Shown here: positions 37,744 through 46,804 of the stretch, in pieces | Numbering within the stretch: position 1 is the first letter of the stretch | Layout of the letters: each line of letters begins with the position of its first letter | Source: Hyphomonadaceae bacterium | GTDB lineage: Bacteria > Pseudomonadota > Alphaproteobacteria > Caulobacterales > Aquidulcibacteraceae | Direction: 5' to 3' | Assembly: GCA_021731815.1 (NCBI GenBank) | Contig: JAKFWO010000006.1 | Coordinates: 1,806-65,805, forward strand | DNA length: 64,000 nt | Notes under the pieces: model-generated | Told to the model about the DNA's origin: nothing | Database searches by the model: none | Seen by the model: only the letters and a program-made list of their open reading frames with translations | Program-made: the position numbers and the translations under genes

Positions 37744-39123
37744 ATGGTCAAACACGCGCGGCGCGCGGTCTTTATCGCCAGTGCACGCGCCGACGATGCG
37801 GCTGCGGAGGCACTTGCCGCCATTTTCTCCGCATCCTTCGTGCCGGCCACCGGGTTCTGGGCCGCACCGCAGGGGCGTGGACGGGAGGTGTTTGTTGCCG
37901 ACGCGCTGGAGGCCCCCACACCCGTCCTCATATTATGGAGCAAGGCGGCGCTGAATTCGCCCCGAATTCTTTCGGTGGCCGGCATCGCGGCCCGCGATTC
38001 ACGCCTCTTTGAAGCGATTTTGGTCGAAGCGAATCGGGTCGAAGCAGTTTCGCCTGAAGCCGACCCGGATTCCTCTTCGCTCCGATCACAGATCCCACTG
38101 TTCCCCGATCGTCTCGGCCGCTTTGACCCGGGCCGGCGCATATTCGCATTGTCGCGCGCCGGATCCCGCGATAATGCCACCGCCGCCGGCGACGAATCCA
38201 GGCCCGACGAAACCGGTCAATTGCAGGCGGCCCTCGAACTCTTTGTCGCCGCACCCCAGATCCGGCCGGTTTCCGTCGCCCCGAAACCGATTTCAGTTCT
38301 GCCCCGCCAGCGGGGATTTCTGGTGGCCGGGACCGCGGGCTTCGGCCTCATGGCTGGTCTGCTCGCCCTTCAGGGCGGGCCGCTCGGGGCGGCTGCCTAC
38401 GAAAAACTCTATGCGGCGATCGATCTGAACGGTGCCATTCGCGGCCTGCAACGCGGATCTGATTCCGATGCTGTCGCAGTCGATCCCGATCTCGCCCCGC
38501 CCGAGACCCGCAGCTGGGCTCCCGATCTGGCCGGATTTCCGCCGGAAATCGCACGGGCCGCCGCCCTTGCGCGTGCCGCCCGCGAGAAGGGGCGCGAAGC
38601 CGCCCGCGAAGCCGAGAAGATCGCCGCCGAAGCCGAGCGGATCGCCCGCGACCCCAATTCGCCCGAACTTCGCCGCAAGGAACATATTTTCCGCGGTGAG
38701 ATCCGCGGCGGCACGCCCGCCGGCATCGGGCGGCGCGAATTTCCCGACGGAGCCCGCTTCTGGGGCACCGAAGGCAAATCCGGCCGCGAGGGGCCGGGCG
38801 TGTTCCTGTTTGCCGATCGCGAGACGTTTCATGGCGAGTTTCGCGGCGATTTTCCCAATGGGTATGGACGCTACGGCTTTGCCGACGGCACCCGTTATGA
38901 AGGCCGCTTTGCCGGTGGCTCCATCGCCGGCTATGGGGTGCTGGTGTTTCCCGATGGCCGGCGTTTTGAGGGGGCCTTTGCCGATAATCCCGGTGCCCTG
39001 ACCTATGAGGGTCCGGGAATCTATTGGCCGCGCAGGGGCCGACCCGTGCATGGCATCTGGCGTGGCGGCAAACTGGCCGGCAAATGGAAAAGCCGCCCCG
39101 AAAGAAAGCAGGATTCGCCATGA
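37744..39123 (+). CDS. TIR-like / transmembrane / MORN-repeat protein
   Basis: 459 residues from the ATG at 37744. Residues 6-105 look like a TIR fold: RRAVFIASARADDAAAEALA (strand A, helix A), FWAAPQ, then APTPVLILWSKAALNSPRIL (strand C-D with the WS..S pattern). The catalytic Glu of active TIR NADases (S-W-x-x-x-E) is not visible; at that place the text reads SPRILSVAG. A single hydrophobic helix (191-209, GFLVAGTAGFGLMAGLLAL) anchors it. Residues about 285-305 form a coiled coil (EAEKIAAEAERIARDP). From about 312 onward four to five MORN repeats follow (GYGRYGFADGTRYEGRF, GYGVLVFPDGRRFEGAF). It overlaps the SDR gene by 4 bp (ATGA). Function unknown. Confidence 0.75.
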   Translation: MVKHARRAVFIASARADDAAAEALAAIFSASFVPATGFWAAPQGRGREVFVADALEAPTPVLILWSKAALNSPRILSVAGIAARDSRLFEAILVEANRVEAVSPEADPDSSSLRSQIPLFPDRLGRFDPGRRIFALSRAGSRDNATAAGDESRPDETGQLQAALELFVAAPQIRPVSVAPKPISVLPRQRGFLVAGTAGFGLMAGLLALQGGPLGAAAYEKLYAAIDLNGAIRGLQRGSDSDAVAVDPDLAPPETRSWAPDLAGFPPEIARAAALARAAREKGREAAREAEKIAAEAERIARDPNSPELRRKEHIFRGEIRGGTPAGIGRREFPDGARFWGTEGKSGREGPGVFLFADRETFHGEFRGDFPNGYGRYGFADGTRYEGRFAGGSIAGYGVLVFPDGRRFEGAFADNPGALTYEGPGIYWPRRGRPVHGIWRGGKLAGKWKSRPERKQDSP

Positions 39124-39971
39124 CTGGCACCGCGGCTGAACCATTCCCCGAAAGAAAATCGAGGCCGAAATTCCGGCGGGCCGATCCCGCGGACGGCATT
39201 GTCTGGCTGACCGGCGCGAGCCAGGGGATCGGGGCTGCTCTTGCCCATGCGTTGGTGGCGCGCGGCTTCACCCTTGCGCTCACCGCGCGCAATGAAGGCG
39301 CGCTGCGGGCGCTCGCCGCCGAATTTCCCGGCCGCGCTTTCGCTTATCCCGCCGATGTGGGCTCGAATGAGGCGATGGCACAATGCTACGCCGACATCCT
39401 TGCCGCGCATGGGCCGATCGGAACTATCATTGCCAATGCAGGTATCTATCGCCCGCTCGCCGCCGAAGCGATCGACATCGCCGCATTCATCGAATGCATC
39501 AATGTCAATCTGCTGGGAGCCGCGCGCCAGATCGCACCCGCCGCGCGCGCCATGGCAACCCGCGGGCGGGGTCATATCTGCGTCATTTCCTCGGCGACCG
39601 GCTTTGGCGGCATGCCGACCTCGAGCGCCTATGGGGCGAGCAAGGCCGCGCTGATCAATTTCGCCGAATGCCTGAAAATCGAACTCGATCCGTTGGGGAT
39701 CGGTGTCAGCCTCGCGGTTCCGGGCTTTGTCGACACACCCGCCCAGGAAACCAATGATTTCCCCAAGCCCTTCATGGTCAGCGCCGATGACGCTGCAAGA
39801 CGGATCGTCGAGGGCATGATGGCCGGCAAATTCGAAATCACCTTTCCCCGCCGCTTCACCTGGCCGCTTGCCGCGATCTATGCCCTGCCGCGGAGCGTTT
39901 ATGTCACGCTCGTGCGCCGGCAGACGGGGTGGGACAAACGCCCGCCGTCAACATCTTCCGGGCAGGATTAG
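39120..39971 (+). CDS. Short-chain dehydrogenase/reductase (SDR)
   Basis: 283 residues from the ATG at 39120, inside the TIR gene's stop (ATGA). The classical SDR marks are present: VWLTGASQGIGAALAHALVA (NADP-type TGxxxGxG), NAG in IIANAGIYRPL, catalytic Ser in VISSATGFGGMPTSS and YxxxK in SAYGASKAALINFAE. A 25-residue charged N-terminal tail precedes the fold, and the C-terminus has hydrophobic, membrane-leaning segments (RFTWPLAAIYALPRSVYVTL). The substrate is unknown. Translational coupling to the TIR/MORN gene suggests, but does not prove, a shared process. Confidence 0.92.
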   Translation: MTGTAAEPFPERKSRPKFRRADPADGIVWLTGASQGIGAALAHALVARGFTLALTARNEGALRALAAEFPGRAFAYPADVGSNEAMAQCYADILAAHGPIGTIIANAGIYRPLAAEAIDIAAFIECINVNLLGAARQIAPAARAMATRGRGHICVISSATGFGGMPTSSAYGASKAALINFAECLKIELDPLGIGVSLAVPGFVDTPAQETNDFPKPFMVSADDAARRIVEGMMAGKFEITFPRRFTWPLAAIYALPRSVYVTLVRRQTGWDKRPPSTSSGQD

Positions 39972-39974
39972 CCC

Positions 39975-40820
39975 TCACCCTTTCGCCAGATCCCCGAAGA
40001 ATTGCAGCAGCAATTTCTCCACCCGGTCATAGGCCTTTTCGGCCTCGTCCAGCGTTTCCTTGTGTGACAGCGAATGATCGGCGATCCCCGCCGCCAGATT
40101 GGTGATCAGCGACAGCCCCGCCACCCTGATCCCGCAATGATTGGCCACAAGGCATTCGGGAACCGTCGACATGCCGACCGCATCCGCCCCCAGCGCGCGG
40201 AAGGCACGAATCTCGGCCGGCGTCTCGAAATTGGGCCCCAAAGTGTAGAGATAGATCCCCTGCTCGACTGAAATTCCCGACCGTGCCGCCGCAGCCTTCA
40301 GCCGCTGGCGCAAGGCCGGGTCGTAGGCTGCGCTCATATCCGGGAAACGGGGGCCGAACCGGTCGTCATTGGGACCGATCAAAGGATTTCGCGCAGAAAG
40401 ATTGATGTGATCCTCGATCAGCATCAGCGATCCCGGCTGGAGCGCGCTATTGATGCCGCCGGCCGCATTGGTCAGCAGCAATTCCTTGACACCGAGTTCG
40501 TGCAATACACGCACCGGCAAGGCGACATCTTCCGGCGCATGGCCTTCATAGAGGTGAAAACGCCCCTGAAGACACACGACCGGGAAATTGGCGAGCCTCC
40601 CCACCAGCAATTTACCCGCATGGCCGGCCACGGTCGCGATGGGAAAGCCGGGAATGTCGGAATAGGGAATTTCGGTGCGGTCCTCGATCTTCGCCCCGAT
40701 CGGGCCAAGGCCACTGCCGAGCACGAGCGCGAATTTGGGGAAATCGCCCCGCACCCGCGCGCGAATCGTCTGGCAGGCAATGTCGATATGGGTCCGTCGG
40801 GCATTGATGCCACTTTTCAT
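39975..40820 (-). CDS. Purine nucleoside phosphorylase
   Basis: 281 residues from the ATG at 40820, which has AGGAAG seven bases upstream; the longer frame adds 46 doubtful residues. It phosphorolyses inosine/guanosine (trimeric PNP type) to base and ribose-1-phosphate. Seen: LVLGSGLGPIGAKIED, VAGHAGKLLVGRL, LQGRFHLYEGH, LTNAAGGINSALQPGSLMLI, EDHINLSARNPLIGPND, YTLGPNFETPAEIRAFR, DAVGMSTVPECLVANHCG and the catalytic Asn in LSLITNLAAGI. It stands close to adenosine and guanine deaminases but behind the terminator of the TonB receptor. Confidence 0.96.
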   Translation of the reverse strand: MKSGINARRTHIDIACQTIRARVRGDFPKFALVLGSGLGPIGAKIEDRTEIPYSDIPGFPIATVAGHAGKLLVGRLANFPVVCLQGRFHLYEGHAPEDVALPVRVLHELGVKELLLTNAAGGINSALQPGSLMLIEDHINLSARNPLIGPNDDRFGPRFPDMSAAYDPALRQRLKAAAARSGISVEQGIYLYTLGPNFETPAEIRAFRALGADAVGMSTVPECLVANHCGIRVAGLSLITNLAAGIADHSLSHKETLDEAEKAYDRVEKLLLQFFGDLAKG

Positions 40821-40936
40821 GGTCTTCCTGCTTTCAAGCGGCATATTTCGTGCGTTTTTCCGGATTCCGCATCCGCCGGCGCGACTCACGAAGAGTCTGA
40901 CCGATCCTTGGCATCCCGGGAGCCTCGCGACAACGG

Positions 40937-40966
40937 AAAAGGCGGGAAATGTTACCATTCCCCGCC
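40937..40966 (-). terminator. Rho-independent terminator after the second TonB receptor
   Basis: On the minus strand GGCGGGGAATG (40966-40956) and CATTTCCCGCC (40951-40941), with one mismatch, close a 4-base loop and are followed by TTTT (40940-40937). It lies 50 bp after the receptor's stop, in the right orientation. Confidence 0.85.
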
Positions 40967-41015
40967 TCCCGAATAATCTGCGAAGGCCGGTGACCCTGCG
41001 GCTCCGGTGCCTGAT

Positions 41016-43268
41016 TTAGCGGAAACGCCCCTTCACCGACACGCCGAAGACGCGCGGTTCATTGACGAAGCCGGTCAGATTATTGAAGTCGATCCCGCCC
41101 TTAAGATTGACCTGATTGGTGATATTGCGGGCAAACAGCGCAAATTCCAGATTTCCGTCGAGGCTCGCATAACCGATTTGCAAGCCGCCCTCAAAGGTAC
41201 CGCCGGAACGGAATTCCGCCGATTCATAAAGGAAGAAATTGGCATTGGTCTGAAAGAACCAGTCGGTGAACAGGAACAATTCGCCCTTGCTGCTGACCGG
41301 ATAGGCAAAACGGCCCGTGGCGCTGATAATCGCCTTCGGTGCCTGCGGGAAAGGATTGCCCGAAACAAGGGCCTGGCCCGAGGCATTCAGCGGATCGAGT
41401 ACCGTACACAGACCCGATCCGCAGGGCGCGACCGCGAGGGTGTCGTCCTTGAGTTCGGTGTTGTTATAGCTCACCCCGCTGGTCAGGGTCAGATAATCAT
41501 TGACCACCCATTCACTGTCCAGTTCAAAGCCGAAGCCAATTCCGAGATCGGCATTGACCAATTGGGTGAGATTGTTCACCCCGCCGATCGCCGATAATTG
41601 CTGGTCCCGGATCCGGTAATAGAAGCCCGACGTATTGAGGCGCACCCGATTGGCAAACAGGGTTGATTTGATCCCACCCTCGAAGGACAAGACGGTTTCC
41701 GAGGTCGCGACCGAAGGCGCGCCGAAGAACGCCACGTCCCGGCCCTGAATGGTCGGGGCACGGAAGCCGCGGGCAATGCGCCCGTAAACATTGATGTCAT
41801 CGGTGAGCTGCCAGGCCGTGGTGACATCCCAGCTCAGCCGGTCGTCGCTGGCGACGACATCGGGCGTCGGCAGATTGGCGGCAAGCGCGCGGAATTGCTT
41901 GTCGTCATCGGTGTAACGCAATCCGCCGGTGACTTTCAGCTTTTCGGTGACCTGATAGCCGACCTGGCCGAACACCGCATAAGACTGGTTTTCCTGCAAT
42001 ACCGTGGTCGGCGGCGCAAAGAAGGGATTGGTGGTGATCTGCAGGTTGGAGTTGAAATAATAAAAGCCGAATTGCCAGTTGATCGGTCCGCCATGATCAC
42101 TGGAAAAACGGATTTCCTGCGTCGTCTGGTCAAGCTCGTCAATCCCGTCCACCGTGTCCGACGGGAAGGGAATCGGCCCCGGCGACGACCCGCCCGGCAG
42201 AAATACAGCCCCCGATCCGCCATCGATGTCGCCGCGGCTGCTGCCATTGGTGGTTTCGAGCGCGGTAATCGAGGTGAAGACCAGGGGACCAAAATCGAAG
42301 TCCCATTTCAGTGAACCACCATAGCCGTCATATTGCTGGCGATTATTGTCGCCGCCATCAAATTCCACCACGCGGCGATCGAAATTTTCGTTGATGCGAT
42401 TGCTGCCCGGGCCGATGATATTGGCCCGGAACACCGCCGATGTCCCGTCGATTGTGCGGGCATGCAGGTTGAGCAGGGCCGAAAACCGCTGACCCGGCGT
42501 ATAGAGAAGCTGGACGCGGCCGGCAAATTCGTCATAGCCGCCCAGCGCACCGATCTGGTCGGTGAAGGAATTGTCGATGTAATCGTCGCGATGCTGGGCG
42601 AGCGCCGAAATCCGGATGGCGAGAACATCCTTCGCCAGAGGCCCTGAAACGGCACCTTCTCCGGTCACCGTATTGAAGGACCCGAAAGTCGCCGCCGCCT
42701 TGGCCTCAAAATTCTGCGTCGGGCGGGCCGTGTCGAATTTCACGATGCCGGCCGGTGTATTGCGACCGAACAAGGTGCCCTGCGGACCGCGCAGCACTTC
42801 CACCTGGGCGAGATCGAAGAGCGGCGAGCTTTTCAGCACGACATTTTCGAGCACGACATCGTCAACGATCACCGAAACCGGCTGCGAGGCCGCGAGATCG
42901 AAATCGGTATTGCCCAGACCCCGAATATAAAAACGGGGCGCGACGCGCCCGTTCGAGGATTCCACATTGAGACTTGGAACACGCGATGACAGCGCGAGAA
43001 TGTCATCGCCCGAATTGAACAGGGCATCCAGCCCCTGGCCCGACAGGGTGGCGATCGAGATCGGCACATCCTGAAGGTTTTCGCTGCGCTTCTGGGCGGT
43101 GACGATGATCTCCGACACCTCGCCCGAATTTTCCTGCGGCTCGGGCGAAGCCGTCTGGGCGAAAGCCGGCCCGGCCAAAATCGCCGCACTCAGCAGGGTT
43201 ATCACACAATAGCTACGGGAGGCCCTGGACGCAGTGCCCAGACCCAGTTCACGTTTCAGGTGACGCAT
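41016..43268 (-). CDS. TonB-dependent outer-membrane receptor
   Basis: 750 residues from the ATG at 43268 (MRHLKRELGLGTASRASRSY), which gives a normal signal peptide (YCVITLLSAAILAGPAFAQ). TonB box: VSEIIVTAQKRSENLQDVP. Plug: ISIATLSGQGLDALFNSGDD, NTDFDLAASQPVSVIVDDVV, VEVLRGPQGTLFGRNTPAG. The barrel follows and ends in SVKGRFR. The receptor sits between purine-salvage genes on the same strand, so a nucleoside or related substrate is a reasonable guess; nothing in the sequence shows it directly. A terminator follows at 40966-40937. Confidence 0.92.
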   Translation of the reverse strand: MRHLKRELGLGTASRASRSYCVITLLSAAILAGPAFAQTASPEPQENSGEVSEIIVTAQKRSENLQDVPISIATLSGQGLDALFNSGDDILALSSRVPSLNVESSNGRVAPRFYIRGLGNTDFDLAASQPVSVIVDDVVLENVVLKSSPLFDLAQVEVLRGPQGTLFGRNTPAGIVKFDTARPTQNFEAKAAATFGSFNTVTGEGAVSGPLAKDVLAIRISALAQHRDDYIDNSFTDQIGALGGYDEFAGRVQLLYTPGQRFSALLNLHARTIDGTSAVFRANIIGPGSNRINENFDRRVVEFDGGDNNRQQYDGYGGSLKWDFDFGPLVFTSITALETTNGSSRGDIDGGSGAVFLPGGSSPGPIPFPSDTVDGIDELDQTTQEIRFSSDHGGPINWQFGFYYFNSNLQITTNPFFAPPTTVLQENQSYAVFGQVGYQVTEKLKVTGGLRYTDDDKQFRALAANLPTPDVVASDDRLSWDVTTAWQLTDDINVYGRIARGFRAPTIQGRDVAFFGAPSVATSETVLSFEGGIKSTLFANRVRLNTSGFYYRIRDQQLSAIGGVNNLTQLVNADLGIGFGFELDSEWVVNDYLTLTSGVSYNNTELKDDTLAVAPCGSGLCTVLDPLNASGQALVSGNPFPQAPKAIISATGRFAYPVSSKGELFLFTDWFFQTNANFFLYESAEFRSGGTFEGGLQIGYASLDGNLEFALFARNITNQVNLKGGIDFNNLTGFVNEPRVFGVSVKGRFR

Positions 43269-43497
43269 TCTGTTCCCCAAATCTCGAAAGCGGGATGCGT
43301 TCCCGCAACGAAAAAGGCCGGAAGCCCGGAGAATCCCCCGTCGGCACCGGCACCATTCGTTCCGGGTAATCAGACGCAATGACGCACTTTGTCAAACGAT
43401 TCGTCACACCATTGTCATCGATTTCGGCAAAAACTTTTGTCCTGTGTCTTCCGTGCGCGGACGTTTTGCACCGATACCAGCGCGCATGTCACCAGAC

Positions 43498-43551
43498 GGG
43501 GCCCAGGCGCGTGGCGGGGCCCAGGCGCGTGGCGGGGCCCAGGCGTGTGGC
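43498..43551. repeat. 18-bp tandem repeat after the fkbM-type gene
   Basis: Three 18-bp units (ggggcccaggcgcgtggc) start at 43498, 43516 and 43534; the last has one change. The array ends two bases from the stop codon (43554-43556) of the methyltransferase gene. It lies in a 285-bp gap before the TonB receptor gene. Confidence 0.9.
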
Positions 43552-43553
43552 AA

Positions 43554-44393
43554 TTAATCGTCGTCACGCACATGGATCCGGTTGCCCGTGCCTGCGAGCG
43601 CCACGTCCCGATATCCGCGGGCCAGCAAATCCGCCGCGAGATCACCGCTCCAGCTTTCAGGATTCCATTCGGTCACTATGGCCCGCGGCCACACATGCCG
43701 CGGCGCATTGGCAAGATACGGCATCAGCACGCGGTCCTCGACCCCCTCGACATCGACCTTGATGGCATCGATCCGGTCGAACCCCGCCTCCGCAACGAGT
43801 TCGGCAAGGGTCCGGACCTGCACCCGGCGCAGGTGCTTTGCTCCCCGCGCCCGGCGGGACAGCTGAAGCGACGAGCCCCCCAGATTGGCGGAATCGACCG
43901 CGAATTCCATCTCTCCCCCTGTGTCGGAAATCGCGGCCTCGACCAGCCGGAGATTGGTGATCCCATTGGCCCCGGCATTGAAGGCGAGGCGTTCGAGGAC
44001 GGTCGCATTGGGATCGACGGCCAATATCCGGGCGCCGGCACCGACATTCCGCGCGACAAAGATGCTATAGGCCCCCACATTGCAGCCGATATCGACGAAA
44101 ACAAATTGGGGATGCAGGCGCGCTTTCAGAAAAGCGAGTTCCCCCGGATCAAAGAATTGCGGCGTGACGATCAGGCGCTTTTCGCCGGCATTGTCCCCTG
44201 GCCACAGGCGCATGTTCTGGCCGAGCACTTCGAGGTCGAGTGGCTGGCGGCGAATACGCTTGAAAATTGACCGAAGGAGCGACGCCATGCGCCGACCGCG
44301 AGGATTCGGCGGCAATCGCCGCCCCCAGGCAATGAGCTGCCGTTCAAACCCATTGGGTCGCAGCGTCCCGAAAGGCGTTGCGGTTTCGCTCAT
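43554..44393 (-). CDS. FkbM family methyltransferase
   Basis: 279 residues. The SAM site (residues about 95-115) reads FVFVDIGCNVGAYSIFVARN, followed by ILAVDPNATVLERLAFNAGA, and the family's late block RIDAIKVDVEGVEDRVLMPY with IVTEWNPESW. FkbM-type enzymes make O-methyl groups on sugars and other small or surface molecules. About 60 basic residues precede the domain. It follows the adenosine deaminase gene by 45 bp on the same strand; no sugar-synthesis genes are nearby, so its substrate is unknown. Confidence 0.9.
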   Translation of the reverse strand: MSETATPFGTLRPNGFERQLIAWGRRLPPNPRGRRMASLLRSIFKRIRRQPLDLEVLGQNMRLWPGDNAGEKRLIVTPQFFDPGELAFLKARLHPQFVFVDIGCNVGAYSIFVARNVGAGARILAVDPNATVLERLAFNAGANGITNLRLVEAAISDTGGEMEFAVDSANLGGSSLQLSRRARGAKHLRRVQVRTLAELVAEAGFDRIDAIKVDVEGVEDRVLMPYLANAPRHVWPRAIVTEWNPESWSGDLAADLLARGYRDVALAGTGNRIHVRDDD

Positions 44394-44438
44394 TGTGGAT
44401 TCACTCTCCGGCTCTTTTTGGCCCTGCAGGCCGACGGC

Positions 44439-45431
44439 TCAGGAAAAAGCGGCCAGTCTGTCGAGCAATTTGGTTTTGAGTTCCCGCGGACAAAAGGCCG
44501 CGTCAATCGCGGCCCGTGTCATGGCAAGCTGCGTTCCTTCGTCCCAGCCAAAAGCGGCGGCGGTCCGCTGGTATTCACTCCCGATATCGCAATGGAAAAA
44601 GGCCGGATCATCGGTGGAAAGACAGAGCCGAACGCCCTCGCGCCGCAAGCGATCGACCGGATGTGAGACGAGATCCGGAAAAAGCCCCAGCGCCAGATTG
44701 GAGGAAGGGCAGATTTCCAAGGTCACATTCTCACCTGCAAGATGGCGGACGAGATCCGGGTCCTCCACCGACCTCACCCCATGGCCGATGCGGCTCGGCC
44801 GAAAAGCCGCGAGTGTCGCACGCACGCTGTCGGCGCCCGCAATCTCGCCGGCATGGGCGGTGAGGCCGAGACCCGCGCCCCGCGCTATATCGAAGGCGCG
44901 GGCAAAGTCGGCAGGCTGGCCGAAGAGTTCATCGCCGGCAAGGCCAAAGCCGGTGACATAAGGATGGGGGAAGGATTCGGCGGCGCGGGCCGCGATTTCG
45001 GCCTGGCCTGGCCCCAAATGGCGCACCGCCGTGAGCACGAGGCGAACCTCCACGCCCAATTGGCTCCGCGCGCGGTCGATCCCATCGGCCAGGCCCGCGA
45101 TGAATTCCGGATAGGTCGCTCCATGCGACAGACCATGATCGAGGGAAACAAACATTTCCCCGTAAATCAGCCCATGCGCGGCGGCGTGGGCATAATAATC
45201 GAACAGGATGTCGCCATAATCCCGGGGCGTCACCGCCATATGGGCCACGGCATCATAGGCAGTGAGGAATTCGTTGAAATCCCGCCAGACATAAGCACCA
45301 TCCGCGCCAATCGCGACCTCGAGATGAAGCCCGTGCCGCGCACCGAGCCGCAAGGCAAGATCCGGCGAAATCGCGCCCTCGAGATGACAATGGAGTTCGG
45401 CCTTCGGAAGCAGGCGGGCATTTACAATCAT
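44439..45431 (-). CDS. add: Adenosine deaminase (or related adenine deaminase)
   Basis: 330 residues. Metal-binding HxH in LPKAELHCHLEGAISPDLAL, catalytic residues in LGLTAHAGEIAGADSVRATL, RIGHGVRSVEDPDLV, CPSSNLALGLFPDLVSHPVD and LCLSTDDPAFFHC. It deaminates adenosine to inosine. Some close relatives deaminate adenine; the sequence alone does not separate them here. Its ATG overlaps the stop of the guanine deaminase gene by 4 bp (ATGA), so the two are coupled. Confidence 0.93.
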   Translation of the reverse strand: MIVNARLLPKAELHCHLEGAISPDLALRLGARHGLHLEVAIGADGAYVWRDFNEFLTAYDAVAHMAVTPRDYGDILFDYYAHAAAHGLIYGEMFVSLDHGLSHGATYPEFIAGLADGIDRARSQLGVEVRLVLTAVRHLGPGQAEIAARAAESFPHPYVTGFGLAGDELFGQPADFARAFDIARGAGLGLTAHAGEIAGADSVRATLAAFRPSRIGHGVRSVEDPDLVRHLAGENVTLEICPSSNLALGLFPDLVSHPVDRLRREGVRLCLSTDDPAFFHCDIGSEYQRTAAAFGWDEGTQLAMTRAAIDAAFCPRELKTKLLDRLAAFS

Positions 45432-46804
45432 AAAGGGGGTAATCTCCTGCGGGGCGACGCGCGGCGATGGACCAGCCGGCCCGCGACATAAGTGCGGGCG
45501 ATCATCCGGTCCTCTCCCAGAATAGACAGCGCAAACAAGGTGTCGGCAAGGTCTGCCGACCAGGATTTGAAGGTGTCGGCAAGGTCTGCTGACCAGGATT
45601 TGTCCGCAACGGACCGGAGACGCCGGGCCAGCAGGGGTGTCGCCGCCCGATCAATCAGCACGAAATCAGCTTCCTTGCCGGGCTCGAGCCCGCCAATGAG
45701 GTGATCGAGGCCAAGCGCCTCCGCCCCGCCAAGCGTCGCCATGCGGAAAGCGTCGAATGGATGGAGATTGTCGCCGCGCATCTGACCCACCCGATAGGCA
45801 TCCTTCTGCGCAGCAAATGGCGAAAGAGAATCGCCCGCGCCAACATCCGAGCCCAGCCCCACCCGGATGCCCATGCGCCGGGCGCGTGAATGGTCGAACA
45901 ATCCGCTGCCAAGAAAGAGATTGGAGCCCGGGCAAAACGCAATCGCCGATCCCGCTTTGGCCAGATCCCGCCATTCACCATCCGACAGATGCACGCAATG
46001 GGCAAAGACCGAGCGCGGCCCCGCCAGACCATGCCGGGCATAGACATCGAAATAATCCCGGTGATCGGGAAATAATTCGCGCACCAGCGCCACTTCCCGG
46101 GGATTCTCGGAAAGATGCGTATGGACCAGCGTGTCAGGGAATCGGGAATGCAGCTTGCCCGCGAGTTCGAGCTGACGATCGGACGATGTCACCGCAAAGC
46201 GCGGGGTGATCGCATAACCAAGCCGCCCTTTGCCATGCCATTTCCGGATGAGCGCCGAACTCTGTTCGGCCGCGATCTCCGCCGGCACCAGCACTTCATC
46301 CGGCGCGCCGCGGTCCATCAGCACCTGACCCCCGATCAGACGCATGTCTTTGGCACGCGCCGCCGCAAACAGGGAATCGGCCGATTGCTTCTGGCTGGCC
46401 GCGAAGACGAGCGCCGTCGTGATTCCGTGGCGCAGCAACTCGGCGACAAAGAATTTCGCAAGGTCCTTCGCGAAATCGCCATCGGACAGACGTGCCTCCG
46501 CGGGATAGATATAACGCTCGAGCCAGTCCAGAAGCTGCGCGCCATGCGCCCCGATCCGGTCGATCTGGGGGAAATGGACATGGGCATCCACAAAGCCCGG
46601 CGCGATCAGGAGATCCGGGAAATGCTCGACCCGCACTTCCGCCGGCAATTTCGGTGCCAGTTCGGAATGATCGCCGATCGCCGCGACATGCCCGTTGTCG
46701 ATCAGCAATATCCCGTCCGGCCAGAAACGTGGCGCTGCCTCGTCCCGCCAGAAGCTGACGATTGCGGCCCGCAAGGCCCAGAGTGGAGGTCGGAATGAGG
46801 GCAT
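45428..46804 (-). CDS. guaD: Guanine deaminase
   Basis: 458 residues from the ATG at 46804 (MPSFRPPLWALRAAIVSFW); the long upstream frame is a shadow of the kinase gene. Amidohydrolase metal sites: APGFVDAHVHFPQIDRIGAH, VHTHLSENPREVALV, VFAHCVHLSDGEWRDLAKAG, and LGSDVGAGDSLSPFAAQKDA. GuaD converts guanine to xanthine. Near the C-terminus an 11-residue piece (KSWSADLADTF / KSWSADLADTL) is duplicated in tandem by a 33-bp DNA repeat, an insertion not expected in the family. The gene starts 11 bp after the kinase stop and overlaps add by 4 bp. Confidence 0.94.
   Translation of the reverse strand: MPSFRPPLWALRAAIVSFWRDEAAPRFWPDGILLIDNGHVAAIGDHSELAPKLPAEVRVEHFPDLLIAPGFVDAHVHFPQIDRIGAHGAQLLDWLERYIYPAEARLSDGDFAKDLAKFFVAELLRHGITTALVFAASQKQSADSLFAAARAKDMRLIGGQVLMDRGAPDEVLVPAEIAAEQSSALIRKWHGKGRLGYAITPRFAVTSSDRQLELAGKLHSRFPDTLVHTHLSENPREVALVRELFPDHRDYFDVYARHGLAGPRSVFAHCVHLSDGEWRDLAKAGSAIAFCPGSNLFLGSGLFDHSRARRMGIRVGLGSDVGAGDSLSPFAAQKDAYRVGQMRGDNLHPFDAFRMATLGGAEALGLDHLIGGLEPGKEADFVLIDRAATPLLARRLRSVADKSWSADLADTFKSWSADLADTLFALSILGEDRMIARTYVAGRLVHRRASPRRRLPPL
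45537..45602. repeat. 33-bp in-frame tandem duplication in guaD
   Basis: Two 33-bp units (45537-45569 and 45570-45602) differ at one base and encode 11 residues each in frame, near the C-terminus of guanine deaminase. Confidence 0.93.

Follow-up and report, generated by a model that had tools for sequence, protein, structure and literature searches.

The Locus and Its Two Overlapping Genes

The window, by which we mean the whole 64,000-nucleotide stretch of Hyphomonadaceae DNA that was analysed, carries two overlapping genes on one strand, the first encoding a protein in which a TIR-like domain, a membrane helix, a long helix and MORN repeats follow one another, and the second a short-chain dehydrogenase (SDR). 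Their features, with the evidence for each, are as follows:

37744..39123, + strand: TIR-like/transmembrane/helix/MORN protein, 459 residues from ATG (open reading frame, Pfam, AlphaFold2, fold search)
37759..38049, + strand: degenerate TIR-like domain, about residues 6-102 (HMM against shuffles; TIR folds at Z about 10-12)
37975..37977, + strand: GTG codon of Val78, which stands in the column of the WxxxE Glu (column counts in alignment A4)
38314..38370, + strand: predicted transmembrane helix, residues 191-209 (hydropathy, flank charges)
38542..38649, + strand: long helix, residues 267-302, beginning with the Px[VI]...AR motif, which relatives conserve ahead of MORN (alignments A1 and A2; AlphaFold2)
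38665..39081, + strand: MORN hairpins, residues 308-446 (Pfam MORN; MORN1, radial-spoke and junctophilin folds)
39120..39123, + strand: ATGA stop/start overlap from the TIR–MORN gene to the SDR gene (sequence)
39120..39971, + strand: classical SDR, 283 residues, PRK07024-like (Pfam adh_short, NCBIfam, 23 orthologues)

Both reading frames were chosen by a codon-usage gene caller, the 459-residue frame being intact and of normal codon usage, and on re-reading of the sequence the coordinates and the ATGA overlap agreed exactly with those of the first-pass annotation, which had raised the idea that the two products form a membrane-bound, NAD-linked signalling pair. Among the nearby genes are some that we take, by eye, to be glnK and amtB, and one for a purine nucleoside phosphorylase that was recognised by Pfam. 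The latter belongs to an apparent purine-salvage neighbourhood at 39975-46708 of the window, in which genes for a TonB receptor and for adenosine- and guanine-deaminase-like proteins were also named by eye.

A TIR Fold without Its Catalytic Motif

Tested against Pfam TIR_2, the 459-residue protein falls under the gathering cut-off (16.1 bits against 28; E 0.016). An HMM made from 45 homologous TIRs, whose alignment has a profile similar to solved bacterial TIRs, gave the first 120 residues 20.4 bits, whereas the best of 20,000 shuffles reached 10.0. With a 46-row alignment, AlphaFold2 reached a pLDDT of about 90 over residues 11-90 (mean 72.7 for the whole protein), a model that is not fully independent because its input alignment was made of canonical TIRs; without an alignment, residues 1-125 were predicted at a pLDDT of 42, too low to inform on the fold. 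When the model was searched with VIA-align, solved TIR domains, namely those of SPARTA, a Toll-related receptor, MAL, MyD88, AbTIR, SpbK and SARM1, aligned over roughly residues 5-166 at Z about 10-12. On pLDDT, Z and HMM score against shuffles the region thus has the character of a TIR (flavodoxin-like) fold, and a predicted TIR fold beyond chance is supported for the N-terminus, so that the suggestion of such a domain, for which an HMM and AlphaFold check had been proposed, was borne out on both counts.

What this fold has lost is equally clear. Column 78 of the alignment holds Glu in all 45 homologues and Val78 in the window protein, and this count was not built into the sample, as the patterns used to gather the homologues left out the Glu. 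At column 74, where the homologues have W, F or Y, the window protein has R74, so both the W and the E of WxxxE are gone. Three residues that do not vary among the homologues (S12, Y13 and D38) are likewise missing, along with G32, which hardly varies. We equate columns 74 and 78 with the WxxxE motif of TIR NADases, and hence column 78 with the catalytic Glu, from established knowledge. Of the seven other TIR proteins that the genome encodes, the six with readable translations have, by eye, the Glu of this position intact. With the Glu replaced, a canonical NADase activity is, to judge from the residues, unlikely, and a role as a putative scaffold or regulator would fit better; the first-pass annotation had failed to see a catalytic Glu and had suggested that the domain might scaffold instead of cutting NAD, and the residue counts confirm the former and support the latter. 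Over roughly residues 5-100 the fold is that of bacterial TIR proteins such as AbTIR, SpbK, the SfSTING TIR and the SPARTA TIR-APAZ protein, but the window protein differs from bacterial TIR NADases in its missing WxxxE (R74/V78), in its fusion to a transmembrane helix and MORN repeats, and in matching no PADLOC family at E 0.01.

The Membrane Helix, the Long Helix and the MORN Repeats

The remainder of the protein is much as the first-pass annotation had described it, with one membrane helix, a coil-like helix and MORN repeats being recovered by hydropathy, AlphaFold2, Pfam and fold search. The single hydrophobic helix, at residues 191-209, is flanked by charges of +3/-0 before and +1/-1 after, a distribution that favours a cytosolic TIR domain and a periplasmic MORN part, and this is the predicted topology. 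The repeats pass the Pfam MORN cut-off (PF02493, E 9.6e-10, 38.2 bits against 22.5), most of the MORN part is modelled at a pLDDT above 90, and residues 302-459 matched MORN proteins in VIA-align with Z as high as 14.9, so both the repeats and the fold are those of a MORN-repeat protein. The fold is shared with MORN1 proteins and junctophilins (Z about 11-15), which differ in being eukaryotic and in having no TIR domain.

The premise that MORN repeats bind lipids proved weak, since MORN1 proteins were reported to interact with individual phospholipids, while binding to membranes or vesicles was not found (PMC7725318). The same study describes MORN repeats as dimerisation or oligomerisation modules (PMC7725318), and by analogy those of the window protein may be better regarded as such modules than as membrane binders.

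Relatives in a TIR-Rich Family

The family to which the window genome belongs is rich in TIR proteins: a single genome can have as many as 27 TIR_2 matches, often as tandem pairs with transmembrane helices, and the window genome itself holds seven other TIR proteins above the cut-off. TIR–helix–MORN proteins recur within this family, at loci L055, L058, L075, L073, L069 and L076, and agree with the window protein in how their domains are ordered and in the helix ahead of the repeats, which starts Px[VI]…AR. They differ from it in having kept the catalytic Glu, and their identity to it is only 22-27%. The transmembrane scores of L058 and L073 are low, with no clear membrane helix in either, so that a periplasmic placement of the MORN part is not general in the class. 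At L055, L058 and L075, Glu-intact genes of this type were seen by eye to have a uvrD-like helicase gene and/or a prmA-like gene nearby, a locus type that sets them further apart from the window protein. A Hirschia locus (L128) holds a TIR protein bearing MORN-like patterns, and at four loci (L053, L054, L068 and L083) TM–MORN genes without a TIR domain adjoin TIR genes.

Domains are combined in other ways as well in these genomes. At L077:1738-3228 (minus strand) a caspase-like protein carries, by eye, the same helix–MORN module as the TIR proteins, and at L057:4784-5458 (minus strand) a TIR domain is fused to a C-terminal Hfq-like domain (TIR_2 5.5e-24, Hfq 5.9e-16). Two TIR proteins of the window genome, L059 and L060, have C-terminal WD40-like repeats, again by eye. 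Divergent TIR–TM–MORN genes lie beside an Hsp70/MreB-like ATPase gene at L052:4235-7215 and L070:2541-5428.

When a tree was built from the helix–MORN part, the window protein came out on a very long branch (2.74), with no resolved partner. The proteins of L052, L070 and L071, which resemble it in having a divergent TIR domain, a transmembrane helix, a proline-rich linker and MORN repeats (short in these three), form one separate clade (support 99/99) that does not include the window protein, and an Hsp70/MreB-like ATPase gene lies next to two of them; all three could be parallel cases of TIR divergence. An orthologue of the window protein was found neither among 60 relatives nor in a 398-genome sample of the order, and a search of a collection of genome contigs returned no close orthologue. 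A search of plasmid sequences gave matches mainly to the MORN region. By sequence comparison, then, the window protein is a long-branch orphan, a putatively fast-diverging member of a lineage-typical TIR–TM–helix–MORN class, and such a branch could also mark a gene under relaxed constraint. None of the papers found in the literature library that we searched deals with TIR–MORN fusions from bacteria; TIR domains fused to repeats are already known, and the window protein is a TIR–TM–helix–MORN version of these in which the catalytic motif has been lost.

The SDR and Its Usual Gene Neighbourhood

The second gene encodes an SDR of classical type (Pfam adh_short PF00106, E 1.2e-42), with the motifs TGASQGIG, NAG and S/YGASK intact, and it resembles NCBIfam PRK07024 at a score under that model's own cut-off. 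From general knowledge of SDRs, we take the Arg that closes the second strand (TARN) to suggest NADP(H).

Four other genera of the family, and a further family in the same order, have orthologues at 49–60% identity, and the SDR keeps constant company in these: in 23 of 23 loci it is found with ChrR and/or DUF6134, and in most of these loci genes for CFA synthase, DUF1365, an amine oxidase-like protein and photolyase adjoin. A TIR or MORN gene lies near the SDR in none of the 23, all of which come from genera other than that of the window. In gene context these loci can be likened to the RpoE/ChrR operon RSP_1087-1091 of Rhodobacter sphaeroides, in which an SDR likewise stands amid ChrR, DUF1365 (UfaO) and an FAD oxidase (UfaD-like) (PMC7380195, PMC7074977). 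The SDR of that RpoE-dependent operon is RSP_1087 (PMC7074977), and its deletion left the fatty acid profile of R. sphaeroides unaltered (PMC7380195). The SDR of the window genome differs in lying outside such a cluster, beside neither ChrR/DUF6134 nor CFA-DUF1365 genes. Elsewhere in that genome, contig C14 keeps the order photolyase–oxidase–DUF1365–CFA without SDR or ChrR, and a search for ChrR, made without a positive control in that genome, gave no match. Judged by sequence and gene order, the window SDR is an orthologue that has been displaced from a ChrR-type stress/lipid cluster.

One further locus was considered as a second TIR–MORN/SDR pair, namely L078, where an SDR lies beside a MORN gene. 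It was rejected, as this SDR belongs to another subfamily (FabG/glucose-dehydrogenase type, 23.5% identity) and lies upstream, the MORN gene has no TIR domain, and a similar MORN gene at L074 has no SDR next to it.

Competing Explanations

Could the two genes nonetheless act together? A stop/start overlap of the ATGA type usually means co-translation, and that at this locus may therefore reflect a recently acquired functional link between TIR and SDR. The pair would then be membrane-bound and linked to NAD(P), with the TIR-like domain sensing or binding a nucleotide and the SDR acting on the same NAD(P) signal or on a membrane lipid substrate, an idea to which the shared strand, the intact SDR motifs and the general association of both protein types with NAD(P) lend some appeal. 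The comparative record tells against it: the same TIR-TM-MORN-SDR pair, which the first-pass annotation had thought worth seeking in other genomes, is never adjacent in the orthologous SDR loci, the window-type SDR is absent from all of the recurring TIR–MORN loci, and the TIR motif residues are lost. We consider a pair of this kind improbable; the SDR seems to have come to lie beside the TIR–MORN gene in this lineage only, and what looked like a two-gene NAD system probably arose by chance from the order of genes in one genome.

For the TIR–MORN gene taken by itself, the main rival to a scaffold is decay, in which selection on a once active TIR effector would have relaxed, leaving as its remnant a gene that is functionless today. 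The loss of the Glu and of other conserved TIR positions, the very long branch and the absence of orthologues from the relatives and the order sample are all as a remnant would have them, but the intact, normally coded frame and the preserved MORN hairpins and membrane helix are not, and we regard decay as unlikely. It is also conceivable that the divergent TIR has remained enzymatically active, its catalytic residue having moved or its substrate being another nucleotide, and serves as an anti-phage or cell-death effector, as many anti-phage systems have TIR effectors and the canonical relatives of this protein match defence TIR profiles. Given that both R74 and V78 depart from WxxxE, that PADLOC has no match for the protein and that the neighbouring genes (the presumed glnK/amtB and the purine nucleoside phosphorylase) look like housekeeping genes, this is very improbable.

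A Membrane Pseudo-TIR and Its Possible Role

The reading that we prefer, at a probability of about 0.5, is that of a pseudo-TIR membrane scaffold or adaptor encoded next to a separate, displaced SDR of the stress/lipid cluster. The TIR domain, having kept its fold and lost its catalytic motif, would most likely be a non-enzymatic scaffold; the helix–MORN part, probably lying in the periplasm, would bring the protein together as dimers or oligomers; and the pseudo-TIR may recruit or restrain catalytic TIRs of the same cell through TIR–TIR contacts. The SDR would be an NAD(P)-dependent oxidoreductase in its own right, one from the ChrR-type cluster that became detached in this lineage and ended up behind the TIR gene, with which it is, by its position, probably co-transcribed while standing outside the mechanism. 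An unsupported idea of two-gene NAD signalling thereby gives way to one that can be tested.

Extended to the whole family, the proposal becomes more tentative, and we hold it to be doubtful that catalytically dead membrane TIR–MORN proteins serve there as adaptors that gather or restrain the several active TIR enzymes of a cell. What can be said is that, in a TIR-rich family of bacteria, proteins occur in which a TIR domain is joined to a membrane helix and a MORN module, and that the catalytic motif has been lost in at least one copy. If the adaptor reading is true, such a protein would be a bacterial counterpart of the non-enzymatic TIR adaptors, and if some copies do act in this way, the TIR networks of bacteria may look like receptor–adaptor systems with several components.
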